A stretch of DNA of 64,000 nt from contig NZ_JADWYI010000001.1 of the NCBI RefSeq assembly GCF_016904885.1, positions 4,092,001-4,156,000 of the forward strand, written 5' to 3'. Positions 7,753 to 28,576 of this stretch are shown in pieces. How positions within the stretch are numbered: position 1 is the first letter of the stretch; each line of letters begins with the position of its first letter. Source of the stretch: Archangium primigenium. GTDB lineage: Bacteria > Myxococcota > Myxococcia > Myxococcales > Myxococcaceae. A model generated the notes under the pieces. That model saw only the letters and a list, made by a program, of their open reading frames with translations. It had not been told where the DNA came from and made no database searches. The translations under genes and the position numbers were made by a program.

Positions 7753-7762
7753 CCGCCCCGAC

Positions 7763-7780: not shown

Positions 7781-7800
7781 CCACCTCAACGGAGTGCGTC

Positions 7801-8127: not shown

Positions 8128-8171
8128 AGTACACGGAACGCCGCGTCCCCCCGGGCGCGGCGATCCAACGG

Positions 8172-8213
8172 GCGGCGCGTGCTCCTCGCTGGGAGCCGCG
8201 CCGCTTCTTTTTT
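8172..8213 (+). terminator. Rho-independent terminator after the SCP2-like gene
   Basis: GCGGCGCG (8172-8179) pairs with CGCGCCGC (8197-8204), continued by GCTCC/GGAGC around a 6-base loop with one bulged T, then TTCTTTTTT. It lies 45 bases past the stop codon and before the next start at 8243. Confidence 0.88.
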
Positions 8214-8242
8214 GTCCGGTCACCCCCACCGCCCCCCTCGCC

Positions 8243-9412
8243 ATGAACACATCGCCGCTCGCCGGACTCAAGGTCCTGGATCTCTCCCGCCTGCTGCCGG
8301 GCCCCTACGCCACGCTGGTGCTCGCCGACCTCGGCGCCCAGGTGGACCGGGTGGAGGAGCCCAACGGGGGCGATCCCGTGCGGCACATGCCGCCCTTCCG
8401 GGACGGCGAGAGCGCGCTGCACCATGGGCTCAACCGCAACAAGCGCTCCCTCACGCTCGACCTCAAGTCACCCGAGGGCCGCGCCGCGCTGCGGCGCCTG
8501 GTGACGCGTTACGACGTGCTGGTGGAGACCTTCCGACCCGGCGTCATGGAGCGGCTGGGGCTGGGCTACGACGCGCTGCGCGCGCACAACCCCCGGCTCA
8601 TCTACTGCGCCATCTCCGGCTACGGCCAGACGGGCCCGGACCGCCTGCGCGCGGGGCATGACCTCAACTACGTGGCGCGCGCGGGCGTGCTCGGCTACGG
8701 CGGCGCGCCGGACGCCCCGCCCGCCTTCCCCGGCGTGCAGATGGGCGACATCGGCGGCAGCCTCTTCGCCCTCACCGGCGTGCTCGCGGCGCTGTACGAG
8801 CGCGAGCGCACCGGCGTGGGCCGTTTCGTGGATATTTCCATGACGGACGGAGCCACGGCCTTCCTGCACATGCATCTGGCGGCGCGCCTGTTCATGGGGG
8901 AGCAGGGGGCGGCGCTGCGCCGCGGCGAGGAGGCGCTCAACGGGGGCCTGCCCTGCTACGGCGTGTACCGCACCCAGGACGGTCGTGCGCTCGCCGTGGG
9001 AGCGTTGGAGCCGCGCTTCTTCGCCGGGGTGTGCGAGGCGCTCGGGCATCCGGAATGGATGGAGGACGCCTACGCGTCTGATGGAGGCGCCGCGCGCGTC
9101 AAGGCGGAGCTCACGCGGCTCATCGCCGAGCGGCCGCTCGCGCACTGGACGGCCCTCTTCGCGGACCGGGACGTGTGCGTCGAGCCCGTACTGGAGGGGG
9201 ACGAGGTGCTCGCGGACGCACAGTTGCGCGCACGCGGTCTTTTTCTGCGGTCCGAGGACACCCCGCCTGGGCACGGGCCGACCCACCTGCGCACGCCCCT
9301 GCGGTTGGGCGAGGTGCCCCCCCGTGCGCCGCCCTCGCTGGGTCAGCACTCGCGCGCCATCCTCGCGGACGCGGGCTTCAATCATGAAGAGATTGAAAAG
9401 CTCGTGAAGTAG
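8243..9412 (+). CDS. CaiB/BaiF-family CoA transferase, alpha-methylacyl-CoA racemase-like
   Basis: The 389-residue protein is a class III CoA transferase-fold enzyme. Family motifs include LSRLLPGPYATLVLADLGAQV at the N-terminus, NRNKRSLTLDLKSPEGR, and VETFRPGVMERLGLGYD. The residues used by alpha-methylacyl-CoA racemase are visible: His in AGHDLNY, Asp in MGDIGGS and Glu in ALEPRFF. This favours racemase (2R/2S-methylacyl-CoA epimerisation) over a plain CoA transferase. The PKS that starts 312 bases downstream is predicted to use methylmalonyl units, so a role with methyl-branched acyl-CoA is possible but unproven. No Shine-Dalgarno sequence is evident before ATG 8243. Confidence 0.85.
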   Translation: MNTSPLAGLKVLDLSRLLPGPYATLVLADLGAQVDRVEEPNGGDPVRHMPPFRDGESALHHGLNRNKRSLTLDLKSPEGRAALRRLVTRYDVLVETFRPGVMERLGLGYDALRAHNPRLIYCAISGYGQTGPDRLRAGHDLNYVARAGVLGYGGAPDAPPAFPGVQMGDIGGSLFALTGVLAALYERERTGVGRFVDISMTDGATAFLHMHLAARLFMGEQGAALRRGEEALNGGLPCYGVYRTQDGRALAVGALEPRFFAGVCEALGHPEWMEDAYASDGGAARVKAELTRLIAERPLAHWTALFADRDVCVEPVLEGDEVLADAQLRARGLFLRSEDTPPGHGPTHLRTPLRLGEVPPRAPPSLGQHSRAILADAGFNHEEIEKLVK

Positions 9413-9724
9413 GTCATGCCAGCAATTGGTTGACCCAGTCCAGGAGTGGATCGCGCTCGGAAATCCAGGCGTCTCCATTGGAGATGGGGTCTGCCTTTAC
9501 CCGCTCCCCATCATCGGGCGAGGCGTGCGATTTTGTGCGCGCTCTCCTCGGAGGCAGGGATGCCCGGCGCGGTGAGGAGAGCGGATGTTTCCGGGGGGGG
9601 CTGTCCAGGGTAGGGGTTTGCCCAGACCGGAGCGCGAGCGCGGCGAAACCGGCGAAGAGCGCAAGTCATTGAGGGGCCTCCGCCGGCGGGCGGGCGCCTC
9701 GATGCGGACACAGGAAGGCGAAAT
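9413..9724 (+). other. Intergenic leader region upstream of the PKS operon
   Basis: This 312-bp gap must hold the PKS operon promoter unless transcription reads through from upstream. I see no good -35/-10 pair: TTGACC at 9429-9434 lacks a -10 at proper spacing. A small palindrome TCTCCA-T-TGGAGA lies at 9472-9484. AGGAAGG at 9712-9718 is the ribosome-binding site of the first PKS gene. No gene, terminator or sigma-54 motif was found. Confidence 0.5.
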
Positions 9725-12700
9725 ATGATGGGGAGCGACAATTCGCAGGGGGCCGGGGCCCAGTCTTCCACCAAGCCGCAATGGCAGGAGGAGGAGGCCC
9801 AGGACGAAGGCGTCGCGCGGCAGGAGGGCTCACGCGAGCCCATCGCGGTCGTGGGGTTGGCGTGCCGGTTTCCGGGAGCGCCGGACGCGGAGTCGTTCTG
9901 GCGGCTGCTGTGTCACCAGGAGGATCTGCTGCGCGAGGTGCCCGCGGAGCGCTGGGACGCGCGGGCCTGGTACGACGCGGACCCGGGCGCGCCGGGGCGG
10001 ATGAACACGCGCCATGGCTACTTCCTGGACGGGGTGAGCGGGTTCGATCCGCTCTTCTTCGGCATCTCCCCGCGCGAGGCGGCGGAGATGGATCCCCAGC
10101 AGCGCATGATGCTGGAGGTGGCGTGGGAGGCGCTGGAGGACGCGGGCCTGCCGCCGGCGAGCCTCAAGGGCAGCCGCACCGGCGTGTTCATGGGCTCCAT
10201 CTGGCACGACTACGCGGACCGGCACCTGCGCGAGCGCGCGGCGGTGACGCTGCACAGCGCCACGGGCCAGTCGCTCAACATCGTGGCCAACCGCCTGTCC
10301 TACGTGCTCGGGCTCAAGGGGCCGAGCCTCACGGTGGACACGGCGTGCTCCTCGTCGCTCGTGGCGGTGCACCTGGCGTGTCAGAGCCTGCGCTCGGGGG
10401 AGAGCCGGCTGGCGCTGGTGGGCGGCGTGAACCTGATGTTCTCGCCCGAGGCGAACGTGCTCCTGTCCAAGTTCGGCGGGCTGTCGCCGGACGGGCGCAG
10501 CAAGGCGTTCGCCGCGGGGGCCAACGGCTTCGGGCGGGGCGAGGGCGCGGGGCTCGTGGTGCTCCAGCCCCTGTCGGCGGCGCTCGCCGCGGGCGCGCGC
10601 ATCTACTGCGTCATCCGCGGCAGCGCGGTGAACAACAACGGCCTGGGCAACGGCCTCACCGCGCCGAGCGTGCCCGGCCAGGCGGCGCTCCTGCGCGAGG
10701 CCTACGCGCGCGCGGGGGTGCCCGCCCAGCGCGTGCACTACGTGGAGACGCACGGCACGGGCACCGCCCTGGGAGACCCCACCGAGGCGAGCGCCCTGGG
10801 CGCGGCGCTCGGCGAGGGGCGCGCCATCGACCGGCCGCTGTACATCGGCTCGGTGAAGTCGCACATCGGCCACCTGGAGGGGGCCGCGGGCATCGCCGGC
10901 GTCATCAAGGTGGCGCTCGCCTTGTCACACCGGCTGGTGCCGCCGCACCTGCTGCACGGCGAGCCCAACCCCCGCATCCCCTTCAGCGAGCTGCGCCTGA
11001 GCCTGCCCCGGCAGCTCCTGCCGTGGCCGGGCGAGGAGGGGCCGGCCACCGCGGGCGTGAGCGCGTTCGGCTGGGGCGGCACCAACGCGCACGTGGTGCT
11101 GGAGGAGGCGCCGCTCGGGGGCGAGGAGCTCCTGGTGCTGGCGGCCGACAGCGCCGAGCAGCTCCTGGCCCAGGCGGCGCGCGCGGAGGAGAGCGTGCAG
11201 CACCGCGAGGCCCCCGCGGGCGTGCGCGACCTGTGCCGCGCCTGGGCGCTGGCGGCGGGCACGGGCGGCCACCGGGCGGCGTTGAGCTTCGGCACGCGCT
11301 CGGAGCTGACGGCGCAGCTCAAGAGCCTGCGCCAGGGCAAGCGCCGCGCGGGCCTCTTCACCGGGGAGCCCGGCGGGCCGTCGCCGCGCGTGGCCTTCGT
11401 GTGCGCGCCCCAGGGCTCGGAGTGGCCCGCCATGGGCCGGGAGCTGCTGGCCACCGAGCCCGTGTTCCGCGCGGCCCTGGAGGCCCTGGACAAGACGTTC
11501 ATGCCGCTGGCGGGCTGGTCCCTGGTGGAGACGGTGCGCGAGCCGAGCGCGCGCATGGCCGAGGACGAGGACGCCGCCGAGCCGCTCGCGTTCGCGGTGC
11601 AGATGGGCCTGGCCGCGCTGTGGCGCTCCTGGGGCGTGGAGCCCGAGGTGGTGCTGGGCCATGGCGTGGGCGAGGTGGCCGCGGCGTGCATCGCCGGGGG
11701 CCTGGAGGCCTCGGACGCGGTGTGGAAGGTGTACCGCGCGTGCCGCCTGCGGCAGTGGGAGCCCCTGCGCGACGAGCTGGAGGCCGCCCTCACGCGCCTG
11801 GAGGCCCGGGACGCGGGGCCGCGCTGGGTGTCCACCGTGGCGCGCGAGGGCGAGGCCAAGTGCCGCACCCTGCGCCAGCCCGTGCGCTTCGCCCAGGCCG
11901 CCGAGCGGCTGGTGGCCGAGGGCGTGGACGTCTTCGTGGAGCTGAGCGCGCACCCGGTGCTCTGCCGCCCGGTGGAGCAGCTGTTGCGCAAGGCCGCGCG
12001 GCCCGGCGTGGTGGTGGGCTCGCTGCGGCGCGACGAGCCGCGGGCCGCCCTGTGCGAGGCGCTCGGGGCGCTGTTCGCCCGGGGCGTGCGCATCCGCTGG
12101 TCCGCCATGCCGCCGCCCGAGTCCCCCGTGCTCGGGCCGTCCGGAGAGGGCGGGTTGATTCCCTGGCCCATGGCGGCGAGCGGACGCGCGGAGCTGCTGC
12201 CCCTGTCCGCCCAGACGCCCGAGGCGCTCGCGCGCACCGCGCAGCTGCTCCTCACGCGCCTGCGCGAGCGCCCGCTGTCCTTGCACGACGTGAGCTACTC
12301 GGCCGCCGCGCACCGGGGCCATCTGCACTACCGGCTCGCGCTCCGGGCGCGCTCGCTCGCCGAGGTGCACGACGGCCTGGGCGCCTTCCTGCGCGGGGAG
12401 CTGCCCCCGGGCCTGTCCACCACGCGCCACGCGGACGGACGGCACCAGCCCGTGGTGTTCGTCTTCCCGGGCCAGGGCTCGCAGTGGGCCGGCATGGGGC
12501 GGCGCCTCATGGTCGAGGAGCCCGTGTTCCGCGACGCCCTCCAGCAGTGTGACGCGGCGCTGCGCCGCTACGTGGACTGGTCCCTCTTGACGCTGCTCGG
12601 CTCGGACGCGCCCGGGTGGATGGAGCGCGTGGATCAGGTGCAGCCGGCCATCTTCTCCATCCAGGTGGCGCTCGCGCGGCTGTGGCGCTCCTGGGGCATC

Positions 12701-15700
12701 GTCCCGGACGGGGTGGTGGGCCACAGCATGGGCGAGGTGGCCGCGGCGCACGTGGCCGGCGCCCTGAGCCTCGACGACGCGGCGCGGGTCATCTGCCGCC
12801 GCAGCCTGCTGCTGCGCCGCGTGAGCGGCCAGGGCGGCATGGCGGTGGTGGAGCTGTCCCTGGAGGAGGCGCGCGCCGCCATCGCCGGGCTGGAGGACTG
12901 GCTCGCGGTGGCCGTGAGCAACAGCCCGCGCTCGTGCGTGCTCTCCGGCGAGCCGCACGCGCTCGGCCAGGTGCTCGACGCGCTCGAGGCCCGCCAGGTC
13001 TTCTGCCGCCGCGTCAAGGTGGACGTGGCCTCGCACAGCCCGCAGATGGACGTGCTGCGCGAGGACTTGCTGCGCGCCCTGGAGGACCTCTCGCCGCGCA
13101 AGGGCGACATCCCCCTGTACTCCACCGTGACGGGCCAGGTGCTCGACGGCGCGGACATGACGCCCGCCTACTGGGTGCGCAACCTGAGAGACCCCGTGCT
13201 GCTCTCGCAGGTGGTGGAGAAGCTGGCCACCGCGGGCCACTCGCTCTTCGTGGAGGTGAGCCCCCACCCGGTGCTGCTGCCCCCCATCGAGCAGACCATC
13301 GCCCACCTGGGCCTGGAGGGCACGGTGCTGCCCTCGCTGCGGCGCGAGCAGTCCGAGCGCGAGGTGCTGCTGGAGACCCTGGGCGCGCTGTTCGCCGTGG
13401 GCCACGAGGTGGAGTGGAAGGCGCTCTTCCCCGAGGGCGGCCGGCGGGTGCGGCTGCCGGACTACCCCTGGCAGCGCCAGGAGTGCTGGTTCCAGCCCGG
13501 CGTCCAGGACGCCCCGCCGGTGGGCGGGGCGAGCCCGGGCGCGCGCGGCTCGGCGGGCGCCTCGTTCCTCGGCCCGGTGCGCCGCTCCTCGCTGCGTCCC
13601 GGCGCCTTCCTCTGGGAGGTGGAGCTGAGCGTGCGGCAGGTGCCCTGGCTCACGGACCACCGCGTCCAGGGCACGCTCGTGCTGCCCACCACGGCGTACC
13701 TGGACTGGGTGATGACGGCGGTGCAGGTGGCGCTCGGCCCCGGGCCCTGGTGCCTGGAGGAGCTGCGCATCGACGAGGCCCTGACGCTCGTGGGCGACAG
13801 CGCGCGCCGCATGGAGCTGCTCGTGGACGTGGGCTCCACGGGGGCCATCTCCTTCAAGGTGTCCAGCTTCGTGCCCGCGGGCGGGGGCGGGGGGCCGGAG
13901 ATGTGGACGGTGCACGCGCACGGCCGCGTGCGCACGCCGGAGGACACCGGGCCCACCGCGGCGTCGCTCGCCGAGCTGGAGGCGCTGCGCCAGCGCGCGA
14001 CCGAGGTGCTCATCGGCGAGTCGCACTACCAGGAGATGGCGCGGCGCGGGCTGGAGTACGGCCCCGCCTTCCGGGGCGTGCGTGAGGTGTGGCGCGCGGA
14101 GGGCGAGGCCGTGGGCCGGCTGGCCCTGCCCGAGGTGCTGGGCACGGTGGATCCCCTGCACCCGAGCGTGCTCGACGCGGCGCTCCAGGTGGTGCTGCAG
14201 GCGCTGCCCTCGGACGACACGTCCTTCGTGCCGGTGGGCCTGCGCCGCTTCGAGGTGCGGCGGCGGGGCACGCCCGTGTGGGCCCAGGCGCGGCTGCCTC
14301 CGCGCGAGTCCTGGCGTCCGGGCGCCGTGCTGGAGGGCGAGGTCGTCCTGATGGATGCGCAGGGCCTGGAGCTCGCGCGGGTGACGGGCCTGGAGCTGGC
14401 CGCGCTCGCCACGAGCCTGGGCCGGGTGCGCGCCGAGCAGGATCGCTCCCTCTTCGAGTTCGCCTGGCGCCGCGCGGCGCTGCCCGCCGGAATCGAGCCC
14501 GGCCCGTCCGAGGTGCCCTGGCTCGTCTTCCAGGACGCCTCGGGCGTGGGCGGAGCCCTGTGCGAGACGCTGGAGTCCTGGGGCCTGCCGTGCGTGCGCG
14601 TGGAGGCGGGCGCGAGCCTGCGCCGACTCTCCTCCCGGCACTACACCGTGGCGCCCGGCTCGCGCGACGACCTGAACACGGTGCTGCGCCAGTGCTTCCC
14701 CGAGGAGGGCTCGTGCGCGGGCGTGGTGTACCTGTGGGGCCTGGACGCGCCGGAGCCGGACGTGACGGGCGAGCGGGCCCTGGAGGCGGCCCTGCGGGCC
14801 TGTGGCGGCGCGCTGCGGGCCGTGCAGGAGGTGGTGAAGCTGGGCTGGCGGGATCCTCCGCGCCTGTGGCTGGTGACGCGCGGGGCCACGCCGGTATTGG
14901 GCACGCCCATGACGGGCGCGCTCCAGGCGGCGCTCTGGGGGCTCGGGCGCACGGTGGGGCACGAGCACCCCGAGTTGCAGTGCACGTGCGTGGACCTGGA
15001 TCCCTCCTCGGCGCTGGTGGACGTGGAGGCGCTGGGCCGGGAGTTGCTGGCGCGCGCCGAGGACGAGCAGGTGGCGCTGCGCGCGGGCAGCCGACTGGCG
15101 GCGCGGCTGGTGCGGCGCTCGGGGACGCGCGAGCCGCACCAGGAGCCCCTGCTGCCGGTGCTGGGCCGGGCCTTCCAGGTGGAGACGCCCCCGGCGGGCT
15201 CCTTCGGCGGGGTGGTGGTGCGCATGGCCGAGCGGCGTCGGCCCGGCCCCGGCGAGGTGGAGATCGCCGTGGAGGCCTCGGCCCTCAACTTCATCGACGT
15301 GATGAAGACCATGGGCCTGTACGTGATGAAGGACGCCAAGAAGGGCGTGCCCCTGGAGGGGCTGCCCCTGGGCCTGGACTGCGCGGGCCGGGTAGTGGCC
15401 GTGGGCGAGGGCGTGACGGCGCTCGCCGTGGGCGACGAGGTGGTGGCCTTCACCCCCTCGGCCATGGCGTCCCATGTCGTCACCGACGCGCGCTTCGCGG
15501 TGCGCCGGCCCGCGTCGCTGAGCGCCGAGGAGGCCTGCGCCATTCCCAGCGTCTTCATGACGGCCTGGTACGCCTTGAATGACCTCGGGCGGCTGCAAGA
15601 GGGCGAGCGGGTCCTCATCCACTCGGCGGCCGGCGGCCTCGGGCTCGCGGCGGTGCAGGTGGCCCAGGCGCTCGGCGCGGAGGTGTTCGCCACCGCGGGC

Positions 15701-17449
15701 ACGCCCGAGAAGCGCGAGCTGTTGCGCGGTCTGGGCATCCGCCACGTGATGGACTCGCGCACGCTCGCCTTCGCCGACGAGGTGCTGCGCGTGACGGGCG
15801 GGGAGGGCGTGGACGTGGTGCTCAACTCCCTGTCCGGCGACGCCATCACCCGGAGCATGGAGGTGCTCGCCCCGGACGGCCGCTTCCTCGAGGTGGGCAA
15901 CCGCGACATCCACGACGGGCGCGCGCTCGACCTGTCGCAGTTCCGCCGCCGACTCGTCTACGCGGCGATCGATCTGGTGGGTCTGCGCGAGCATCGGCCC
16001 AAGGTCTGCGCCCGGCTCTTGCGCGAGGTGATGGACCTCATGGCCTCCGGCGAGCTCAAGCCCGTGCGCCACCAGGCCTTCCCGGTGTCGCGCGTGTCCG
16101 ACGCCTTCCGCGAGATGGCGCAGGGCCAGCACGTGGGCAAGCTCGTCGTCACCCTGGACGATCCCAAGCTGCGCATCGTGCCGCCCCGGCCCGGCTTCCG
16201 CGTCCGCGCGGAGGGCACCTACCTCATCACCGGCGGCCTGGGCGGCCTGGGCCTGTCGGCGGCCCGGTGGCTCGTGCGGCGGGGGGCGCGCAGCCTCCTG
16301 TTGCTCGGGCGTCGGGCGCCGTCCGCGTCCGTCCTGGCGGAGCTGGACGCGCTGCGCGCCGAGGGCGCGCGCGTGGAGGTGGAGCGCGTGGACATGGCGG
16401 ACACCACCCGGCTCTCGGAGGTGGTGGGCCGCACGCACGGCGAGCTGCCCCAACTGCGCGGCGTCCTGCACTGCGCGGGCGTGCTGGATGACGGCGTGCT
16501 GGAGCAGCAGGAGCCGGCGCGCTTCCGCGAGGTGCTCAGCCCCAAGGTGCGCGGCGCGTGGTCGCTGCACACCCTCACCCGGGACGAATCGCTGGACTTC
16601 TTCGTCCTCTACTCCTCCATGTCGGCGCTGCTGGGCATGCCGGGCCAGGGCAACTACGCGTCGGCCAACGCGGCCATGGACGCGCTGGCCCACCACCGGC
16701 GCCAGCAGGGCCTGCCGGCGCTCAGCGTGAACTGGGGCCCCTTCTCCGAGGTGGGCCTCGCCGCGGCCCAATCCAACCGGGGCGAGCGCCTGGCCTACCA
16801 GGGCATGGCGAGCTTCACCCCGCAGCAGGGCGAGGCGCTGCTCGAGCGGCTGCTCGCGGAGGGCGCGGTGCACGTGGGCGCGGTGTCGCTCGACCTGCGC
16901 CAGTGGTTGCAGTTCTTCCCCAACGCCGCCTCCCAGCGCGTGTGGGAGGAGCTGGCGGCGGAGCGCGGCGGCGAGGGCGCGAAGAACAAGTCCGCCCTGC
17001 TGATGGATCTGCGGCGCGCCGCGCCCCCGGCCCGCGCGGGCCTCCTGGAGAACTACCTGCGCGAGCGGCTGTGCCACGTGCTGCGCGTGGACGCGGGGCG
17101 CGTGGGCCGACACGATGCCTTCCGGGGCCTGGGCCTGGACTCGCTCATGAGCCTGGAGCTGCGCAACCGCATCGAGGCCGCGCTGGACCTGAAGCTGTCG
17201 GTGACGCTGCTGTGGGCCCACTCCACGCTGGCGGCGCTCGCCACCTACCTGCTGGAGCAACTGGGCCTGGGCGCCCCGGCCGAGCGCGCCGCGGCGCCCT
17301 CCGGCAAGAAGGACAAGGACAAGCCCCGCGCCAAGGAGACGCGGCCTCCGCCCGCCGCCCCCGAGTCCCGGCCGCTCGTGGACCTGTCCGAGCGCAAGCT
17401 GCTCGAGATGGCGGATGACGCCCTGGCCGCCTGGGAGGACGCGTCGTGA
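9725..17449 (+). CDS. Type I polyketide synthase, one fully reducing module with tandem AT: KS-AT°-AT-DH-ER-KR-ACP
   Basis: The 2574-residue protein is a complete extension module. KS (~38-460) has Cys208, His343 and His383. A first AT (~555-795) is degenerate: APQGSEW replaces GQGSQW, Gly647 replaces the active Ser (GHGVGE), and about 80 residues of the core are missing. The second AT (~908-1205) is intact with Ser1001 (GHSMGEV) and VASHSPQMD, a methylmalonyl-type signature. DH (~1279-1565) has His1312 in HxxxGxxxxP and Asp1484. A structural KR half precedes ER (~1816-2149, GGLGLAAVQ). KR (~2162-2345) has Tyr2311 and an LDD motif (B-type). ACP carries Ser2473. It should add a fully reduced methyl-branched unit, as mycobacterial mycocerosic acid synthase does, possibly iteratively. 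No loading domain is present. ATG 9725 has AGGAAGG 6 bases upstream. The stop overlaps the next start (GTGA). Confidence 0.95.
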   Translation: MMGSDNSQGAGAQSSTKPQWQEEEAQDEGVARQEGSREPIAVVGLACRFPGAPDAESFWRLLCHQEDLLREVPAERWDARAWYDADPGAPGRMNTRHGYFLDGVSGFDPLFFGISPREAAEMDPQQRMMLEVAWEALEDAGLPPASLKGSRTGVFMGSIWHDYADRHLRERAAVTLHSATGQSLNIVANRLSYVLGLKGPSLTVDTACSSSLVAVHLACQSLRSGESRLALVGGVNLMFSPEANVLLSKFGGLSPDGRSKAFAAGANGFGRGEGAGLVVLQPLSAALAAGARIYCVIRGSAVNNNGLGNGLTAPSVPGQAALLREAYARAGVPAQRVHYVETHGTGTALGDPTEASALGAALGEGRAIDRPLYIGSVKSHIGHLEGAAGIAGVIKVALALSHRLVPPHLLHGEPNPRIPFSELRLSLPRQLLPWPGEEGPATAGVSAFGWGGTNAHVVLEEAPLGGEELLVLAADSAEQLLAQAARAEESVQHREAPAGVRDLCRAWALAAGTGGHRAALSFGTRSELTAQLKSLRQGKRRAGLFTGEPGGPSPRVAFVCAPQGSEWPAMGRELLATEPVFRAALEALDKTFMPLAGWSLVETVREPSARMAEDEDAAEPLAFAVQMGLAALWRSWGVEPEVVLGHGVGEVAAACIAGGLEASDAVWKVYRACRLRQWEPLRDELEAALTRLEARDAGPRWVSTVAREGEAKCRTLRQPVRFAQAAERLVAEGVDVFVELSAHPVLCRPVEQLLRKAARPGVVVGSLRRDEPRAALCEALGALFARGVRIRWSAMPPPESPVLGPSGEGGLIPWPMAASGRAELLPLSAQTPEALARTAQLLLTRLRERPLSLHDVSYSAAAHRGHLHYRLALRARSLAEVHDGLGAFLRGELPPGLSTTRHADGRHQPVVFVFPGQGSQWAGMGRRLMVEEPVFRDALQQCDAALRRYVDWSLLTLLGSDAPGWMERVDQVQPAIFSIQVALARLWRSWGIVPDGVVGHSMGEVAAAHVAGALSLDDAARVICRRSLLLRRVSGQGGMAVVELSLEEARAAIAGLEDWLAVAVSNSPRSCVLSGEPHALGQVLDALEARQVFCRRVKVDVASHSPQMDVLREDLLRALEDLSPRKGDIPLYSTVTGQVLDGADMTPAYWVRNLRDPVLLSQVVEKLATAGHSLFVEVSPHPVLLPPIEQTIAHLGLEGTVLPSLRREQSEREVLLETLGALFAVGHEVEWKALFPEGGRRVRLPDYPWQRQECWFQPGVQDAPPVGGASPGARGSAGASFLGPVRRSSLRPGAFLWEVELSVRQVPWLTDHRVQGTLVLPTTAYLDWVMTAVQVALGPGPWCLEELRIDEALTLVGDSARRMELLVDVGSTGAISFKVSSFVPAGGGGGPEMWTVHAHGRVRTPEDTGPTAASLAELEALRQRATEVLIGESHYQEMARRGLEYGPAFRGVREVWRAEGEAVGRLALPEVLGTVDPLHPSVLDAALQVVLQALPSDDTSFVPVGLRRFEVRRRGTPVWAQARLPPRESWRPGAVLEGEVVLMDAQGLELARVTGLELAALATSLGRVRAEQDRSLFEFAWRRAALPAGIEPGPSEVPWLVFQDASGVGGALCETLESWGLPCVRVEAGASLRRLSSRHYTVAPGSRDDLNTVLRQCFPEEGSCAGVVYLWGLDAPEPDVTGERALEAALRACGGALRAVQEVVKLGWRDPPRLWLVTRGATPVLGTPMTGALQAALWGLGRTVGHEHPELQCTCVDLDPSSALVDVEALGRELLARAEDEQVALRAGSRLAARLVRRSGTREPHQEPLLPVLGRAFQVETPPAGSFGGVVVRMAERRRPGPGEVEIAVEASALNFIDVMKTMGLYVMKDAKKGVPLEGLPLGLDCAGRVVAVGEGVTALAVGDEVVAFTPSAMASHVVTDARFAVRRPASLSAEEACAIPSVFMTAWYALNDLGRLQEGERVLIHSAAGGLGLAAVQVAQALGAEVFATAGTPEKRELLRGLGIRHVMDSRTLAFADEVLRVTGGEGVDVVLNSLSGDAITRSMEVLAPDGRFLEVGNRDIHDGRALDLSQFRRRLVYAAIDLVGLREHRPKVCARLLREVMDLMASGELKPVRHQAFPVSRVSDAFREMAQGQHVGKLVVTLDDPKLRIVPPRPGFRVRAEGTYLITGGLGGLGLSAARWLVRRGARSLLLLGRRAPSASVLAELDALRAEGARVEVERVDMADTTRLSEVVGRTHGELPQLRGVLHCAGVLDDGVLEQQEPARFREVLSPKVRGAWSLHTLTRDESLDFFVLYSSMSALLGMPGQGNYASANAAMDALAHHRRQQGLPALSVNWGPFSEVGLAAAQSNRGERLAYQGMASFTPQQGEALLERLLAEGAVHVGAVSLDLRQWLQFFPNAASQRVWEELAAERGGEGAKNKSALLMDLRRAAPPARAGLLENYLRERLCHVLRVDAGRVGRHDAFRGLGLDSLMSLELRNRIEAALDLKLSVTLLWAHSTLAALATYLLEQLGLGAPAERAAAPSGKKDKDKPRAKETRPPPAAPESRPLVDLSERKLLEMADDALAAWEDAS

Positions 17450-20400
17450 GCGAGGAGGTGAAGGACGAGCTCAAGCAGCGCCTGGCGCGCGCCGTCCTGG
17501 TGATGCAGAAGATGCAGGCGCGCATCGACACGCTCGAGCGCGCCCGCTCCGAGCCCATCGCCGTGGTGGGCATGGGCTGCCGCTTCCCCGGGGGCGCGGA
17601 CACGCCCGAGGCCTTCTGGGAGCTGCTCGCCGCGGGGCGCGATGCCGTGCGGCGCGAGCCCGCCTCCCGGCGCGTGGGTTCGGACAGCACCACCCGTTGG
17701 GCGGGCTACCTGGACGACGTGAGCGGCTTCGACGCGGACTTCTTCGGGCTGTCGCCCCGCGAAGCCGCGAGCCTGGATCCCCGCCAGCGCATGCTCCTGG
17801 AGGTCGCCTGGGAGGCGCTGGAGCACGCGGGGCAGGATCCCGAGCGGTTGATGAACACGCCCACGGGCGTCTTCGTGGGCCTCACGGGCGATGACTACGC
17901 GCGCCTGTTGCCCGCCGAGCCCGAGCGCATCGACGCCTACTTCGGCACCGGCAACGGGCACTGCTTTCCGCCCGGCCGCCTGTCGTACACGCTGGGCCTG
18001 CGCGGGCCGAGCCTCGCGGTGGACACGGCGTGCTCCTCGTCGCTCGTGGCGGTGCACCTGGCCTGCCAGAGCCTGCGCTCGGGCGAGTGCGACGTGGCGC
18101 TCGCGGGCGGCGCCAACCTGGTGTTGGACCCGACCGTCACCCACACCCTCGTGAAGATGCAGGCGCTCTCGCCCAACGGGCGGTGCAGCGCCTTCGACGC
18201 GCGCGCCAACGGCTTCGTGCGGGGCGAGGGCGCGGGTCTCGTGGTGCTCAAGCGCCTGTCGGACGCCACCGCCCAGGGCGACACCATTCTCGCCGTGCTC
18301 CGGGGCTCGGCCGTCAACCAGGACGGGCGCTCGCAGGGGCTCACCGCGCCCAACGGGCTCGCCCAGCAGGCCCTGCTGCGTCAGGCGCTGCTCCAGGCCC
18401 GCGTGGAGCCCTCGGCGCTCGGGTACGTGGAGGCCCATGGCACCGGCACCCCCCTGGGCGATCCCATCGAGGTGGAGGCCCTGGTGGAGGTGCTGGGCCA
18501 GGCGCGCGCGGATGGCTCGCGCTGCGCCATCGGCTCGGTGAAGACGAACCTCGGCCACCTGGAGGCCGCCGCGGGCATCGCCGGCCTCATGAAGGCCATC
18601 CTCGCGCTCCAGCACGAGGCCATTCCCCGGCACCTGAACTTCTCCCGGCTCAACCCCCGCATCCGCCTGGAGGACACGCCCTTCTTCATCCCCACGGAGA
18701 CGGTGCCCTGGACGCGCTCGGGCACACCCCGCGTCGCGGGCGTGAGCGCCTTCGGCATGAGCGGCACCAACGCGCACATCATTATAGAAGAAGCCCCGGT
18801 GCCTTTCCCGCGCCCGCGGCCCGCCACCCGGCGCAGCGCGCACCTGCTCACGCTCTCCGCTCGGAGCGAGGCCGCGCTGGAGGCGCTGGCCCGCCGCCAC
18901 GCCACGCACCTGGCCACCCACCCGGCCGAGGACGTGGCCGACGTGTGCTTCACCACCAACACCGCGCGCGCGCGCCTGCCGTACCGGCTCGCCGTGGTGG
19001 GCGACTCGGCGGCGGCGATCGCCGGTCACCTGTCCGCGTTCACGCCGGGCCACGCGCCCCGCGAGCGCCTGGCCTCGGGCCGGGCCGCGGAGGCCCCGCC
19101 CAAGGTGGCCTTCCTCTTCACCGGCCAGGGCGCGCAGTTCGCTGGCATGGGCCGCCGCCTGTTCGAGACGTCCGACGTCTTCCGCGCCGCCCTGGAGCGC
19201 TGCGCCGCGCGGCTCGCGCCGAGGATGGATCTGCTCGGGGTGCTCTTCCCCAAGGAAGGCGCGCTCTCGCCCATCGATCAGACGGGCTACAGCCAGCCGG
19301 CGCTCTTCGCCCTGGGGTACGCGCTCGCGGAGCAGTGGCGCGCGTGGGGCGTGGTGCCCACCGCCGTCATGGGCCACAGCGTGGGGGAGTTCGCCGCCGC
19401 GTGCGTGGCGGGCATCCTCTCCCTGGAGGACGCGCTGGAGCTCATCGCCGAGCGCGGCCGGCTCATGCAGGGCCTGCCGCCCGGCGGTGTCATGGCCACG
19501 GTGTTCGCCTCGCGCGAGCAGGTGGCGCCGCTGCTCGTCCGGGAGGAGGGCCGCGTCTCGATCGCCGCGGACAACGCGCCCGGACAGCTCACCGTGTCCG
19601 GCGAGGCCGAGGCCGTCGCGCGTCTCACCGCGGCCCTGGAGGCCCAGGGCATCTCCTGCCGCAAGCTCAACGTCTCGCACGCCTTCCACTCGCACCTCAT
19701 GGAGCCGATGCTCGACGCGCTGGAGGCCAAGGCGGCGCGGCTGGCGCGCAAGCCGGGGACGATTCCCCTGGTGTCCAACGTGACGGGCCGGCCCGTGGCG
19801 CCCGAGGAGCTGGGCGCGCCGGGCTACTGGCGGCGTCATGCCCGCGAGGCCGTGCGCTTCCGCGAGGGCATGGAGGCCCTGCGCGGCCTGGGCATCGACG
19901 TCTTCGTGGAGGTGGGGCCCCACGCCACGCTGCTGGGCCTGGGCCGGGCGAGCCTCGGGGACGGGCCGGGCTGGCTCTCCTCGCTGCGCAAGGGCAAGGA
20001 CGACCTGGAGCAGATGTTGGACGTGCTCGGCCACCTGTCCGTCCGGGGCCTCGCGCTGGACTGGAAGAAAGTGGACCCGGAGCCCACGCGGCGCCGGGTG
20101 GTGCTGCCGCGCTACCCGTGGCAGCGGCAGCGACACTGGGCCCTGTCCGAGTCGGCGCCGGCTCCGCGCGCGGCGTCGGCCGAGGCGGGGGAGTTGTACG
20201 GCGTGGAGTGGCGGAGCGTGCCCGCCGCGGCGCCCGTGCCCGGCCCGGCGCCCGGCACCTGGTGGGTGCTGGAGGACGGGGGCGGCGTGGCCGAGCGGCT
20301 CGCCGCGCGCATCGAGGCCCAGGGCGGCACCTGCGTGCGCTCGCGGCGACTGCCCGAGGGCGCGGCGTGGGCCGACTGCGCGGGCGTGGTGGTGCTCTCG

Positions 20401-23400
20401 GGGCTGGACGCGCGGGACGTGACGGGTCCGGAGGTGGGCGCGGCCTGTCTGGAGCTGACGGCGGCGCTGCGGGCCCTGGAGGCGGTGCCGGAGGCGCGGG
20501 CCCGGGTCTGGGCCGTGACGCGGGGGGCGTGGCGGGAGGCGCCCGCCCAGGCGGTGCTCTGGGGCCTCGGACGGACCCTGACGCTGGAGCACCCCCGGCA
20601 CTGGGGCGGACTCATCGACCTGGACGCGGGCGGGGACGTGGACGGCCTCTGGGCGGCGCTCCAGGCCCCGGGCGGCGAGGATCAGCTCCGCCTGGAGGGC
20701 GGCACGCGGCAAGTGGCGCGGCTGGTGAAGCGCGAGCCGCCCGCGACCCAGCCCCTCGCGGTGCGCGCGGACGCCACCTACCTGGTGACGGGCGGGCAGG
20801 GCGCGCTCGGCCTGGAGCTGGCGCGCGAGCTGGTGGGTCGGGGCGCGCGGCACCTGGTGCTCACCTCGCGCGGCGCCTTCCCCGAGCGCGCGCACTGGGA
20901 CGAGCTCGTGAGCCAGGGGGATGAGCGCGCGGCGCGGATCTCCGCGGTGCGGGAGCTGGAGGCGGCGGGCGCCGAGGTGTGGCTGGTGCAGGCGGACGTC
21001 TCCCGGCGCGAGGACATGGCGGCCCTGCTCGAGCGGATGCGCGGCGCGCTGCCGCCCCTGCGCGGTCTCGTGCACGCGGCGGCGGTGTCCGAGAAGCGCG
21101 AGGGCCGGACGCTGGACGCGGACGCGCTCGGCCGCGTGCTCGCGCCCAAGGCGGAGGGGGCGTGGCACCTGCACACCCTCACGCGCGAGACGCCGCTGGA
21201 CTTCTTCGTGCTCTTCTCGTCGGTGGCCGCGGTGTGGGGCTCGGCGGGCGAGGGCGCCTACGCGGCGGCCAATGCCTTCCTGGACGCGCTCGCGGCGCAC
21301 CGGCGGGCCCAGGGGCTGGTGGCCACGAGCATCGCCTGGGGCCTCTGGGAGGGCGAGGGCACGGGGACGGCGCGGGATCGGCGGTGGTTGGAGAGCGTGG
21401 GCCTGGGCGCCCTGCCGCGCGCCTCGGGACGAGCCTGGTGGGCGCGGCTGGTGGGCGCGGACGTGACCGAGGGCGTGGTGGCCCTGGTCGACTGGGAGCG
21501 GCTGCGGCCCCTGCTCGAGGCCCGGAGCCCGAGGCCCTTGCTGTCGCTGCTGCCCGGGAGTGAGAACGTCCCGCGCGCGCCGACGCGAGGTCCCCCCGCG
21601 CCCGGGGCCCTGGACGTGCTCGTGCGCGAGACGGTGTCGCGCACGCTCGGCCTGCCCGCGGAGGCCGGGGTGGACGACACGCGCGGCTTCCACGAGCTGG
21701 GGCTGGACTCCATCATGGCGGTGGAGCTCAAGACGGGCCTGGAGGCCGCGCTGGGGCTGACGCTGCCAGCGACCCTGGCGTTCAACTACCCGAGCGTCCG
21801 GGCCCTCACGGAGCACCTGGCCACGCGGCTGGGCTCGCAGGTGGAGGAAGCCCCCGCGGCGTCCGCGCCCCGGGAGGTGGTGGACGCGGAGGAGCCCATC
21901 GCCATCGTCGGCATGGCGTGCCGGCTGCCCGGCGGCGTGGAGACCCCCGAGGCCTTCTGGCGGCTGCTGCGCGACGGCACGGATGCCATCTCGGAGATTC
22001 CCCGGGATCGCTGGGCGGTGGAGGACTGGTACGACCCCGACCCGGCCACCCCGGGGAAGATGGCCGTGCGCCAGGGCGGCTTCCTGCGCGACGTGGCGGG
22101 CTTCGATCCGGGCTTCTTCGGCATCTCGCCGCGCGAGGCGGAGAGCATGGATCCCCAGCAGCGGCTGATGCTGGAGGTGGCGTGGGAGGCGCTGGAGCGG
22201 GCGGGCCAGGACACGACGGCGTTGCGCGACTCGGCCACGGGTGTCTTCGTGGGCGTCACCACCACGGACTACGCCCGGGTCATCCTCCAGGGACGCCCCG
22301 AGGCGGTGGATGCGTGGTTCGCCTCGGGCACGTCGCTCAACGCGGTGGCCGGGCGCGTGTCGTATACGTTCGGCTTCAAGGGCCCGAGCATGGCGGTGGA
22401 CACGGCGTGCTCCTCGTCGCTCACGGCGCTGCACCTGGCGTGTCAGAGCCTGCGCTCGGGCGAGTCCACGCGGGCGCTCGCCGCGGGCGTCAACGTCATC
22501 CTCGCCCCCGAGCCGATGATGGCGGCGAGCCGGGCGCGCATGCTGGCGCCGGACGGGCGGTGCAAGACGTTCGACGCCTCGGCCAATGGCTTCGCGCGGG
22601 CCGAGGGCTGCGGGGTGCTGGTGCTCGAGCGGCTGTCGGACGCGCGCGCCCGGGGCTCCAACGTGCTGGCGCTCATCCGGGGCACGGCGGTGAACCAGGA
22701 CGGGCCGAGCAGCGGCCTCACCGTGCCCAACGGCCTGGCGCAGCGCGAGGTCATCCAGCAGGCGTTGCGGCGCGGTGGCGTGGCCCCGGCGGAGGTGAGC
22801 TATCTGGAGGCCCACGGCACGGGCACGTCGCTGGGCGACCCCATCGAGGCGGAGGCCATGTGGTCCGTGCTCAAGGAGGGCCGGGCGCCGGGCGCCTCGC
22901 TGTGGATGGGCTCGGTGAAGACGAACCTGGGCCACCTGGAGTCGGCAGCGGGCGTGGCGGGCGTGATGAAGGTGGTGCTGGCGCTGCGGCACCGGCAACT
23001 GCCCGCGCACCTGCACCTGAAGACGCCCAACCCCCACATCGACTGGAAGGGCATGGGGGTGACGGTGCCGGTGGCGCTGACGGACTGGGCGCCCACCCAG
23101 GGCCGGCGCCTCGCGGGGGTGAGCTCGTTCGGCTTCAGCGGGACGAACGCCCACGTGGTGCTGGAGGAAGCCCCCCCGGCGCCCGAGCAACCCCGGAGCG
23201 AGGCGCGCGAGCACGTGCTGCTGCTCTCGGCGCGCAGCGAGGAGGCCCTGCGGGTGCTGGCGGGCCGCTACGCGCGGGCGCTGGAGGCGGGCGCGTCCCT
23301 GGAGGACCTGTGCTTCACGGCGGCGGTGGGGCGGGCGCGCTTCGAGCACCGGGGGGCCTGGACGGCCCGGACGGCGGAGGAGCTGCGCGCGCGCCTGCTG

Positions 23401-26319
23401 GAGGTGGAAGCGGGACGGGAATTGGCGGGCGCGCGTGCGCGGGCCGAGGCGCTCGGCGAGGGCACCCCGGCGCCCCCGGGTGGACACCGGGTGGAGGCGC
23501 CCACCTATCCCTTCGAGCGCCAGCGCTACTGGTGGCGCGAGCCGGCGGTGCGTCCGGTGGCCGCGGCGTCGCATGTGCCTCACGCCGTGCCCCACTTTGG
23601 CCGGCGGCTGCGCTCGCCCGCGCTCGACGCGCTCGTGTACGAGGCGGTGTATGGCCCCTCGGGGCCGGTGCACCTGGAGGACCACCGGCTCTTCGGCACG
23701 CGGGTGGCCGCGGGCTCCTCGCACGTGTCGTTGGTGCTATCGGTGCTCCAGGACGTGCATGGCTCGCCCGTGTGCACGCTGGAGAACGTGGCCTTCCCCC
23801 AGGCCCTGTCGCTCGGGGACGACGAGGAGCGCACGCTCCAGGTCATCGTCGCGCCGCCGGAGCGGGGCGGGGCCTTCGAGGTGAAGTCCTGGAGCGGCGC
23901 GCGCGACGGCACGGACGCCTGGGTGCTGCACGCGAGCGGCACGGTGCGCGTGGGGTCCCCCACGTCCCCCGAGCCCTGGTCGTCCCGCGAGCAGCTCCTG
24001 CCGCGCTGCTCCGAGCGGCACTCCGGCGAGACGCTGTACCAGGCCATGCGCGCGCGCGGCTACACGCTCGGGCCGGGCTATCAGTGGATCCACTCGGTGG
24101 CGCGCGGCGGCCATGAGCTGGTGGGCGAGCTGCGGCTGCCCGCGCTGCGCGACTCGCTGGACGATCACGTGCTGCACCCGGGCCTGGTGGACTCGTGCTT
24201 CCAGGTGCTCGCGAGCTGGACGTTGGATCTCCTGGCGAAGCAGCAGGACACCCTGCTCATCCCCTTCAGCCTCGAGCGCTTCACCGTGCACCGCCGACCG
24301 AGGGGCGCGGTGTGGTGCCATGCGCGGATCCGCGAGGGCCGCGAGGAGGAGAACACCCTCGTGGGGGGCGACCTGCGCCTCTTCGACGAGGAGGGGCTGG
24401 TGGCGGAGGCGCTCGGCTTCCGGGGCCGGATGGCGAGCCGCGAGGTCTTCCACGTGGGCGCCGCGCCCCGCTCGGAGGACGCCCGCTACGAGGTGCACTG
24501 GGCCCCCGCGCCGCCACGCGCCCCGGGCTCGCTCCTGGACGGAGGGCGCCCCTGGAGCCTGTGGATGGATGCGGGCGGCGTGGGCGAGCACCTCGCCCGC
24601 CAGCTGGAGGCGAGCGGCGCCACGGTGCGGCGGATCCACTCCGCGGGAGAACTGCCGCCGGAGAGCCTGGGAGTGGTGTACCTCGCGGGGCTCGACGCGC
24701 GCATTCCCGACAACGCCTCCGCCGAGGCCGCCCAGCACGCGGTGCTCGAGGCGAGCGGGGGCGTGTTGGATCTCGTGAAGGCCCTGGGCGCGCGCGGAGG
24801 TGACACGCCGGTGTGGCTCGTCACCCGAGGCGCGCGGACAGTGGCGCCCGGGGCCGCGCCCGCCCTGGCCCAGGCGCCGCTGTGGGCCCTGGGCCGGGTC
24901 ATCGATCGGGAACTGCCCGGCTCGCGCTGGGCCCGGGTGGACCTGGAGCCCGGGGACGACGCGGGGGGTCTGGACCTGCTGCTCGCCGAGCTGGCCGCGG
25001 GCGTGGATCCCGCCGAGCGCGAGGTGGCCTTCCGGGGCGGCACGCGCCTGCACCCGGTGCTGCGCGAGGGCCCGCCGGTCGCGGACGGGGCCGTGGGCTT
25101 CGCGCGCGAGGCGACGTACCTCATCACCGGAGGACTCGGAGGGCTGGGCCTGGAGGTGGCGAAGTGGATGGTGGAGCGGGGCGCGCGGCACCTGATGTTG
25201 GTGGGCCGCCGGGCGCCGTCGTCCGCCGCCGAGGAGGCGATCCTCGAGCTGGAGCGCGCGGGCGCCCACGTCGCCGTCGAGTCGGTGGACGTCTCGCGCG
25301 AGGAGGACATCGTGCGGCTGCTGCACCGCATCGACGTGGACGCGCCGCCCCTGCGCGGCATCGTCCACGCGGCGGGCGTGCTCGATGACGGGGCGCTCGG
25401 CCAGCAGGACCGCGAGCGCTTCGCGCGGGTGATGGACCCGAAGGTGGCGGGCGCGTGGAACCTGCACCGGCTCACGCGGGGCCTGTCCCTGGACTTCTTC
25501 GTCCTCTTCTCCTCGGCCTCGGCCACCGTGGGCTCGCCGGGCCAGGGCAACTACGCCGTGGCCAACGCCTTCCTGGACGCGCTCGTGCACGAGCGGCGGG
25601 CCCAGGGGCTTCCAGCGCAGTCCCTCGCCTGGGGGCCGTGGGCGGAGACGGGCATGGTGGGCGCGCCCGATGGCCAGCTGGCGCGAGCGCTCGCACGGCG
25701 GGGCATCCGCCCATTGCCGACCCAGCGGGCCCTCGCGCTGTTCGAGGAGGCGCTGCGGCACGGCGCGCCGCACGTGGCGCTCATGTCCATTCAGTGGCCG
25801 GTGTACCTGGAGGCGCTCGGGGCCCTGGGCCGCTCCTCCTTCTATGGGGGCCGTGTGCCCGCGCCGGCGCGACTCCCCGCACCCGTCCGGGACGCACCGC
25901 TCGCCCGACGGCTCCAGGAGGTGGCGCCCCACGAGCGGGCCCGCCTCCTGGCGCGCGGGCTCCAGGACGAGGCGGCGCGGGTGCTGCGGCTGGAGGCCTC
26001 ACGCGTGGACTGGCGTCAGGGCTTCGCGGAGCTGGGCATGGACTCGCTGATGGCCATCGAGCTGCGGGACATTCTCCAGAAGCAGCTCGGGGTGTCGGTG
26101 CCGGCCACGGTGGCGTTGGACCACCCGACCATCGACTTCCTGGCGCGCCATCTGCTCGCCGAGGTGTTGAAGCTGGACGGGGGCGAGGTGCCCGCGGTGG
26201 CTCCCGTGCCGACGGCGGCACCCGTGGTGGCTCCGCCCGGAGCCGGGGACAACCTGGACGGGCTGTCGGACGAGGAGCTGGCGCGGCTGGTGGCGGAAGA
26301 CCTGGCGAGGGACTCGTGA
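17446..26319 (+). CDS. Type I polyketide synthase, two modules: KS-AT-KR-ACP / KS-(no AT)-DH-KR-ACP
   Basis: The 2957-residue protein starts with a coiled-coil docking helix (residues ~1-35). Module 1: KS (Cys196, His331, His371); AT (~555-870) with Ser645 (GHSVGEF) and HAFH, the malonyl-CoA signature; KR with Tyr1272, no LDD motif and Trp1264 eight residues before the Tyr, the A-type mark; ACP Ser1422. Module 2: KS (Cys1655, His1790, His1830) runs into ~115 residues of linker and then directly into the post-AT motif [10 protein letters not shown] (~2021-2030), so the AT domain is absent. DH (~2034-2332) has His2080 and Asp2249, but the usual Pro of HxxxGxxxxP is Ala. KR is B-type (LDD, Tyr2703) and ACP has Ser2867. 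A C-terminal docking tail ([15 protein letters not shown]) ends the protein. GTG 17446 overlaps the upstream stop. Expected output is one hydroxyl unit and one alkene unit. Confidence 0.95.
21892..23165 (+). repeat. KS segment duplicated in the next gene (paralogous copy at 26429-27705)
   Basis: The KS of the AT-less module and the KS of the terminal KS*-AT° protein align almost without gaps. The offset is 4537 bases at the start and a constant 4540 bases from the active-site Cys to the third catalytic position. Long stretches are near-identical in DNA, such as the coding for [11 protein letters not shown] and HLHLKTPNP. This points to internal duplication within the operon. Confidence 0.7.
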
Positions 26320-26329: not shown

Positions 26330-28576
26330 ATGAGCGAGGAGATCAACTACCGCCAGCTGCTGCAGCAGCAGCTGGTGAAGATCCGCAAGCTGGAGGCGCG
26401 GCTGGAGCAGGCCGAGGCCGCGCGCCGCGAGCCCATCGCGATCGTCGGCATGGCGTGTCGGCTGCCGGGCGGCGTGGAGACGCCCGAGGCCTTCTGGGAG
26501 CTGATGGCCCGGGGGGAGGACGCCACGAGCGAGGTGCCCCCGGACCGCTGGGACGCCGAGGTGCTGTACTCCCCGGAGCCGGGCGCGCGGGGGAAGATCC
26601 GCACCCGGCGCGGCGGCTTCCTCCGGGACGTGGCGCACTTCGACGCGCGCTTCTTCGGCCTGTCCGACCGGGAGGCGGAGCGGATGGATCCCCAGCAGCG
26701 GCTGATGCTGGAGGTGGGGTGGGAGGCGCTGGAGCGCGCGGGGGTGGCGGTGGCGCGCGCGCGGCGCGAGCGGGTGGGCGTCTTCGTGGGGGTGATGAAC
26801 AACGACTATGGCCAGCGGGTGCTGAACACCGAGGGCCTGGAGGGCATTGATCCGCACTTCATGGGGGCGCGGGCCAACTGCGCCATCGCCGGGCGGCTGT
26901 CGTACCTGTGGGGCTTCCAGGGGCCGAGCCTGGTGGTGGACACGGCGTGCTCCTCCTCGCTGGTGGCGGTGCACCTGGCGTGTCAGAGCCTGCGCGAGGG
27001 CGAGAGCACGCTGGCGCTGGCGGGCGGGGTGAACCTCTTGCTGTCGCCCGAGGCGAGCATCTACCTGTCCAGCAGCGGGGCGCTGTCGCCGGACGGGCGG
27101 TGCCGGGGCTTCGACGCGGCGGCGGACGGCTTCGGGCGGGCGGAGGCGTGCGGGGTGCTGGTGCTCGAGCGCCTGGCGGACGCGCGGGCCCGGGGCGCGA
27201 ACGTCCTCGCGGTCATCCGGGGCTCGGCGGTGGGACATGACGGGCCGAGCAGCGCCTTCACGGTGCCCAATGGGGTGGCGCAGCGGGAGGTCATCCGCCA
27301 GGCGCTGCGGGCGGCGGACGTGGCGCCCGCGCGGGTGAGCTACCTGGAGGCGCACGGTACGGGCACGCCCATGGGCGACCCCATCGAGGCAGAGGCGATG
27401 TGGTCCGCCCTCAAGGAAGGCCGGGTGGGAGGCGAGTCCCTGTGGATGGGCTCGGTGAAGACGAACCTGGGCTACGCGGAGGCGGCCTCGGGGGTGGTGG
27501 GCATGATGAAGGTGGTGCTGGCGCTGCGGCACGGCCAACTGCCGCCGCACCTGCACCTGAAGACGCCCAACCCGCGCATCGACTGGGCGCGCATGGGCGT
27601 CACCGTGCCGCGCGAGCTGACGGCGTGGACGCCCACCCAGGGCGAGCGCGTGGCGGGGGTGACCTCCTATGGGCGCACGGGCACGGTGGCGCACGTGGTG
27701 CTCGCCGAGCCTCCCGCGCGCGCCGAGGCGGTGCCGGGCGTGGAGCGGCCCGCGCATTTGTGGGTGGTCTCGGCGCGGAGCGAGGCGGCCCTGCGCGCGC
27801 AGGTGGAGCGCCACGCGCGCTTCCTGGAGACGAGCCCCGAGCCCCTGGGTGACCTGTGTTTCACGGCCGCCACGGGGCGCACGCACTTCGAGCACCGGCT
27901 GGCGGTGGTGGGGCGGGACGCGCGTGAGGTGCGCGAGGGGCTCTTGCGCGCGGCCTCGGCGCGGCTCGCTCCGCCCGTCACCGCCGCGCCCGGCGTGGTG
28001 TTCGTCTTGAGGAGCGACGGCCCGGCCTTCCCGGAGGAGACGCGGGCGCTGTTCGACACCCAGCCCGTGTTCCGCGAGGCGCTGGAGGCGGGCGCGAGCG
28101 CGAGCGGGGGCCTCGTGGACGGGCCCCTGTTGCCGGTGCTGTTCGGCGGCGCGGCCAGCGACGCGATGGCCCGGGCGGCCGGGTTCGTGCGGACGTGGGC
28201 GCTGACGCGGCTGTGGCGCGCGTGGGGCGTACGGCCGGAGGCCTGGGAGGCCCCGGGCGTGGGCGCCTGGGTGGCGGCGGTGGCCGCCGAGCGGGTGGGC
28301 CTGGCGGAGGGTCTGCGGGGCGCGCTCGCGGGCACGGTGGCGCCTCCCGTGGTGAGCCCCGTGGACGCGGCGGCGACAGTACGACTGGAGCTGGACTCAC
28401 CGGCGTGGAGCACGCTGCTCACGTCACTCGGCGCGCTGTATGTCCGGGGCGTGGAGGTGGACTGGGCGGCCATCGAGCCCTCCCGGGTCCGGCGCCGCGC
28501 TGTCCTGCCGACCTATGCCTTCCAACGCGAGCGCTACTGGCTCACATCTCCCCGCGTCCAAGCGTCCACCGGCTGA
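26330..28576 (+). CDS. Terminal PKS protein with mutated ketosynthase and degenerate AT (KS*-AT°), no ACP or TE
   Basis: The 748-residue protein begins with a coiled-coil docking segment (~1-33) that should receive the chain from the upstream protein. The KS (~34-465) keeps Cys207 and His342, but the third catalytic residue, normally His in GHxEAA, is Tyr382 (LGYAEAASG). The AT (~553-720) has lost GQGSQW and the GHSxG nucleophile elbow (APGVGA, Gly643 at the Ser position) and is shortened, although the post-AT motif YAFQRERYWL is kept. No ACP, TE or reductase domain follows. It cannot act as a normal extension module. Possible roles are a chain-holding or transesterifying KS, a release or cyclisation step, or a decaying remnant of a lost module. 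GAGGAGG precedes ATG 26330 and the gap to the upstream gene is 10 bases. Confidence 0.93.
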   Translation: MSEEINYRQLLQQQLVKIRKLEARLEQAEAARREPIAIVGMACRLPGGVETPEAFWELMARGEDATSEVPPDRWDAEVLYSPEPGARGKIRTRRGGFLRDVAHFDARFFGLSDREAERMDPQQRLMLEVGWEALERAGVAVARARRERVGVFVGVMNNDYGQRVLNTEGLEGIDPHFMGARANCAIAGRLSYLWGFQGPSLVVDTACSSSLVAVHLACQSLREGESTLALAGGVNLLLSPEASIYLSSSGALSPDGRCRGFDAAADGFGRAEACGVLVLERLADARARGANVLAVIRGSAVGHDGPSSAFTVPNGVAQREVIRQALRAADVAPARVSYLEAHGTGTPMGDPIEAEAMWSALKEGRVGGESLWMGSVKTNLGYAEAASGVVGMMKVVLALRHGQLPPHLHLKTPNPRIDWARMGVTVPRELTAWTPTQGERVAGVTSYGRTGTVAHVVLAEPPARAEAVPGVERPAHLWVVSARSEAALRAQVERHARFLETSPEPLGDLCFTAATGRTHFEHRLAVVGRDAREVREGLLRAASARLAPPVTAAPGVVFVLRSDGPAFPEETRALFDTQPVFREALEAGASASGGLVDGPLLPVLFGGAASDAMARAAGFVRTWALTRLWRAWGVRPEAWEAPGVGAWVAAVAAERVGLAEGLRGALAGTVAPPVVSPVDAAATVRLELDSPAWSTLLTSLGALYVRGVEVDWAAIEPSRVRRRAVLPTYAFQRERYWLTSPRVQASTG

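Follow-up and report, generated by a model that had tools for sequence, protein, structure and literature searches.

In the 64,000-nucleotide stretch of the Archangium primigenium chromosome analysed here (the window; contig NZ_JADWYI010000001.1, positions 4,092,001 to 4,156,000), three polyketide synthase (PKS) proteins, which we call P1, P2 and P3, are encoded on the forward strand (Table 1). P1, a single open frame of 2574 residues, has two acyltransferase (AT) domains in tandem after one ketosynthase (KS), KS1, as in ACP-KS-AT-AT starter modules, in which an acyl carrier protein (ACP) precedes the KS. The first of these ATs, here AT°, has lost its catalytic residues and part of its fold. 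The PF00698 profile matched it in two pieces only, at profile positions 2-140 and 236-300 of 319 (window ~11396-11809 and ~11855-12043; G000:C1 4103396-4103809 and 4103855-4104043), whereas the second, AT2, was matched nearly whole (1-311). The motif of AT2 we take to be methylmalonyl-like. Domain profile searches found no N-terminal loading ACP in P1, its sole phosphopantetheine-binding (PP-binding) stretch being at the C-terminus, nor did tblastn with the ACP of an orthologue (from genome G116) as query detect a remnant upstream of the gene, in window 7000-9950.

Table 1. Features of the three PKS proteins (positions in the window; ~, approximate)
Feature	Position	Strand	Basis or remark
P1, first PKS protein: KS-AT°-AT-DH-ER-KR-ACP, without N-terminal ACP	9725..17449	+	ORF and domain profile search
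KS1	9836..11104	+	catalytic Cys, His, His retained; clade with KSs of KS-AT-AT modules
AT°, dead first AT, probably once a loading AT; alpha/beta shell lacking the small subdomain	~11375..12082	+	
Gly codon of AT° at the position of the catalytic Ser (GHGVGE)	11663..11665	+	
Junction of the 76-residue deletion in AT° (small subdomain and catalytic His)	11755..11756	+	alignment, models
Second KS-AT-type linker, between AT° and AT2	12167..12424	+	PF22621/PF22336 at residues 824-891
AT2, intact extender AT (GHSMGE, VASHS, Arg kept)	12437..13399	+	
P2: KS-AT-KR-ACP, then KS-DH-KR-ACP	17446..26319	+	domain profile search
Site of the vanished AT in the second P2 module; post-AT linker (11 residues) alone remains	~23450..23540	+	
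P3: KS and dead, deleted AT; no ACP, no TE; His of KS GHxE replaced by Tyr	26330..28576	+	
Dead AT of P3 (APGVGAW)	~27980..28540	+	

A search of 145 genomes of the order with the dead AT region as query (E <= 1e-40) recovered this region in 14. Eleven of them had a dead first AT; four belonged to g1, the window's genus, six to genus g8 and one to genus g4. Gly occupied the Ser column in 11/11, and the ends of the deletion were identical in all of them. Compared with the intact orthologues, 76 columns were absent between RLRQ and WEPLRDEL, including the block with the catalytic His, so that the His column, too, was missing in 11/11. Recurrence of the Gly and of identical deletion ends in 11 genomes excludes a sequencing error or chance as explanation. 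No stop codons were present in the region in these genomes. In the remaining three, G116, G117 and G132 of genus g23, an intact first AT with GHSLGE and VAAHS stood at the same place, and the orthologue was of the type ACP-KS-AT-AT-DH-ER-KR-ACP. Its N-terminal ACP was recognised by motif in G116 and G117 and by Pfam in G116 (two PP-binding stretches); in G132 just the ACP end falls within the sequence examined. The original prediction, made from the letters of the window, had described tandem ATs in P1, with an intact second AT and a first one inactivated by loss of the Ser and of about 80 core residues, which agrees with these data. It had also counted a missing GQGSQW motif among the signs of inactivity, and here it erred: AT° reads PQGSEW, but the intact orthologous ATs carry PQGSQW, so that the GQ to PQ change is probably older than the loss of activity.

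The phylogeny bears on where AT° came from. Our AT tree comprised 80 domains and 243 columns; it leaves out loci L015-L017 (far or FabD-like) and the dead ATs of P2, of P3 and of another PKS locus (L063), while eight loci repeating domains of longer loci, one G006 row and one fragment had been omitted from the domain set. The first ATs, 11 dead and three intact, formed one clade (support 100/99); the 14 AT2 domains made up a separate one (100/98), near the second ATs of other KS-AT-AT modules. AT° might have been a decayed duplicate of its neighbour AT2, as the original prediction had itself considered, since the two are adjacent and fall within one broader AT group. Each, however, clusters with its own g23 counterpart, and therefore both predate the split; forcing the P1 first ATs into one clade with the second ones lowered the log-likelihood by 24.6 and was rejected (approximately unbiased (AU) test, p 0.031). 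We regard a simple local duplication as very improbable. A constraint uniting the first ATs of P1 with all tandem first ATs and a stand-alone AT discussed below was not rejected (p 0.297). The unconstrained tree did not contain that joint group: the long-branched tandem first ATs L071 and L072 adjoined the P1 clade and the others lay apart. The proposal that AT° is the relic of a loading AT is thus supported by its clustering with the intact first ATs of orthologous ACP-KS-AT-AT proteins; as to the suggested comparison with characterised loading ATs, the tandem ATs in our tree are uncharacterised ones, and those of myxalamid, stigmatellin and soraphen are not among them.

Two further marks concern this origin. 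In a quick KS tree, the 14 KSs of P1 and 11 KSs of tandem-AT modules formed an exclusive clade (SH-aLRT 98), which on the sequences compared is independent support for a starter-module origin of P1. One AT column carries the Arg to which the extender carboxylate binds. This Arg was present in 52/52 extender ATs of our set and absent in 11 of the 12 tandem first ATs. The intact orthologues had Tyr at this column (3/3) and AT° had Ala (11/11), a weak mark for a dead domain. The intact first ATs of g23 would have a loading role.

We therefore propose, with a probability of roughly 0.8, that P1 goes back to an ACP-KS-AT-AT starter module capable of priming itself, which lost its loading AT and ACP and in which selection maintains the shell of the AT, most likely as a spacer. 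In the ancestor, the first AT would have charged the N-terminal ACP with a starter acyl group, KS1 would have taken up this starter and AT2 would have loaded the extender onto the ACP at the C-terminus. The losses would date to the common ancestor of the window's genus and two related ones: there the Ser of the loading AT would have changed to Gly, and the small subdomain with the His as well as the loading ACP would have disappeared. The leftover alpha/beta shell would have been kept, most likely as a folded spacer positioning the linker and AT2, and KS1 would now obtain its starter in trans or directly. Beyond what the original prediction had seen, the loading ACP is lost too, the shell is conserved and not decaying, and further ATs of the line are dead or missing.

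Models and substitution rates are in line with a retained shell. An AlphaFold2 model of the AT° region of the window (465 residues, 14 sequences) had a mean pLDDT of 78.3 and showed a continuous alpha/beta shell. In the model of an intact orthologue (mean pLDDT 73.3), the block corresponding to the deletion ran strand-helix-strand-strand-helix-strand. The AT small subdomain is ferredoxin-like, and the deleted block fits such a subdomain, at low model confidence in that part. Foldseek returned KS-AT didomains as top matches for both models. Between the window and G003, identity was 82.2% for AT°, 84.1% for AT2, 82.4% for the P2 AT and 49.7% for the dead AT of P3; between G084 and G085, the corresponding values were 94.4, 96.3 and 90.8%, as against 76.7% for P3 and 75.5% for the second module of P2. 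The dN of the dead P3 AT was ~2-5x that of AT° in 7/8 genome pairs. The dN/dS ratios were low for the live domains and for the P1 shell (0.13-0.50 for AT° across the 8 pairs, with a second calculation giving similar values); their absolute values lean on a low dS in these GC-rich codons, and for this reason only contrasts between domains were used. That AT° evolves at about the pace of a live AT and does not drift suggests, as far as sequences can tell, that it is a structural part, most likely a spacer holding AT2. The simplest reading would be that a live AT fused behind a shell prevents loss of that shell, whereas a shell with nothing behind it erodes.

Several observations weigh against this proposal. 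The substrate specificity of the g23 first ATs is a predicted one, and the AT tree carries a long-branch warning. The small subdomain is poorly modelled in the intact AT, and the Foldseek fits had a high rmsd. In one pair, G010-G030, the dead ATs showed similar rates (94.2, 94.3 and 96.8% identity) and no contrast appeared. In G116, P1 sits behind genes for a thioesterase (TE)-bearing PKS and a nonribosomal peptide synthetase (NRPS); that it acts first in the chain is for this reason deduced from its domains. Finally, P2 and P3 also have dead or missing ATs and the whole line could be declining. The shell would then be an unselected remnant, with P1 to P3 losing function together. An AT is indeed dead or missing behind 3 of the 4 KSs of the line, and P3, besides having neither ACP nor TE, has lost the GHxE His of its KS in 10/10 genomes. 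Such a general decay appears improbable to us, however, since the 11 dead-AT genomes have no stops in the region, the low dN/dS ratios extend from the live domains to the P1 shell, and KS1, KS2 and KS3 retained Cys, His and His in the genomes inspected.

The losses in the other two proteins form a series of their own. The AT of the second P2 module was live in G116, a dead shell in the g8 genomes and reduced to its linkers in the g1 genomes. P3 was conserved in 10 genomes, and its KS grouped as sister (support 91) with the one in the second P2 module of g1 and g8, which points to a duplication. P3 is possibly a non-elongating terminal KS. Trans-AT PKSs have extension modules without AT, the AT being encoded separately in the cluster. 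The second P2 module, composed of KS, linker and post-AT linker without an AT, resembles these. Unlike trans-AT PKSs, the subject of the review PMC6164871, the line keeps live cis ATs, one in P1 and one in the first module of P2, and no discrete AT is encoded in the window.

Tandem or dead ATs were seen at other PKS loci as well. L063, in another PKS cluster of the window's genome (G000:C1:5182644-5183687, minus strand), encodes a dead AT in which Ser-to-Gly (GDGVGE) is combined with a deletion at the corresponding place; its orthologues are dead in G107 and G108 (GDGVGE, GDGIGE). An AT of a different module was lost here in the same way. L062 of the same genome (G000:C1:5157882-5160113, minus strand) is a module with two intact ATs in tandem. 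On contig C13 of G116 (L083, L084, L096), PKS genes ending in TE, an NRPS (C-A-PCP) and the ACP-KS-AT-AT PKS occur, and this hybrid line also includes a PKS whose last module bears an apparent methyltransferase stretch and an ACP.

If P1 derives from a starter module, the question arises who primes the line today. Judging from its domains, P1 is hardly able to prime itself as its ancestor would have done, and we infer that it takes its starter from elsewhere, as the original prediction had proposed. KS1 showed the active site DTACSSS in 7/7 P1 proteins inspected, with Cys, His and His kept in all of them. In KSQ loading modules the Cys is replaced by Gln or Ser; its retention in P1 excludes decarboxylative priming of the KSQ type. 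Candidates are a direct acylation of KS1, back-transfer of an extender after decarboxylation, or an AT acting in trans. Truncated PKSs can be primed by direct acylation or back-transfer. The intact catalytic residues of KS1 would allow it to be acylated directly by acyl-CoA, or to receive a methylmalonyl unit loaded by AT2, decarboxylated and passed back. Since KS1 is not of the KSQ type, which excludes the usual decarboxylative loader, we consider self-priming by KS1 only a tentative option.

The trans AT has a concrete candidate. A stand-alone loading-type AT (L098, G000:C1:5818930-5820021, minus strand) is encoded next to a kinase-like gene with a PEGA domain. As a discrete ORF of 366-392 residues it was found in 10 of the 145 genomes, exactly the members of g1 and g8, all with a dead first AT; it thus occurred in 10/11 dead-AT genomes and in 0/134 others, among them the three with an intact cis AT. 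Ser, and Gln in the Arg column, were conserved in the copy of the window's genome and in the orthologues L101-L110, and in the AT tree the protein fell among tandem first ATs. It may therefore have replaced the dead cis AT and prime P1 in trans. Its gene, however, does not lie near the PKS genes of the window, with a kinase-like neighbour in the window's genome, P1 retains no loading ACP for it to charge, and in the eleventh dead-AT genome, G006 (86% complete), it was not found in this search. Moreover, the 10 genomes being members of two genera, shared ancestry alone could explain the pattern. Priming by this AT seems unlikely to us. Two neighbouring genes were also considered and rejected. 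A family III CoA transferase adjoining P1 (8243-9412) was examined as starter supplier because it had seemed to accompany dead-AT clusters, but with occurrence in 118/145 genomes it is a chromosomal neighbour. A short-chain dehydrogenase/reductase gene at 28607 had no match among the ORFs of six related clusters (filtered list) and was dismissed as a cluster member.

ACP-KS-AT-AT loading modules are known from MiuA of miuraenamide biosynthesis, and soraphen, myxothiazol, myxalamid and chondramide are named likewise in PMC10051162. P1 shares with them the order KS-AT-AT, a kindred KS and an extender AT in second place, and its g23 orthologues have the full arrangement; it differs in that its ACP is gone and its first AT dead and without small subdomain. 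By the sequences, P1 is what remains, in derived form, of the myxobacterial ACP-KS-AT-AT starter module; lacking the ACP and a live first AT, it should not be classed among the functional representatives of this type. Dead ATs in working lines have a parallel in the myxobacterial haliangicin line hli, where according to a figure legend the AT1 of module 2 is inactive and no complementary trans-AT was found (PMC4768178). There, too, a dead AT exists without an obvious substitute, but it is assigned to an extension module, whereas in P1 a loading AT would precede a live AT. In natamycin-type polyene loaders, according to PMC12843615, an inactive CAL domain is kept. Here also a line that works has held on to a dead loading domain although its priming changed; domain and phylum are different, and a KSS has taken over the priming. 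Searches of an open-access library gave no earlier description of a dead loading AT retained as in P1.

In conclusion, this line is of interest for the shell that it has retained and for the series of AT losses around it. A more far-reaching idea, which we hold to be doubtful, is that we see a cis-AT line in stepwise passage to AT-less modules: ATs would be inactivated by a Ser-to-Gly change and clean removal of the small subdomain, shells with another AT behind them would be frozen as scaffold, others would erode and vanish, and priming would have moved to the stand-alone loading-type AT inherited with the line. In practice, annotation pipelines which predict the starter from the first AT of such lines call for caution. 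The series from intact AT over dead shell to full loss occurs within one orthologous line, where live domains of the same proteins serve as controls. It therefore makes testable what non-catalytic work PKS domains may do and how cis-AT modules turn AT-less.

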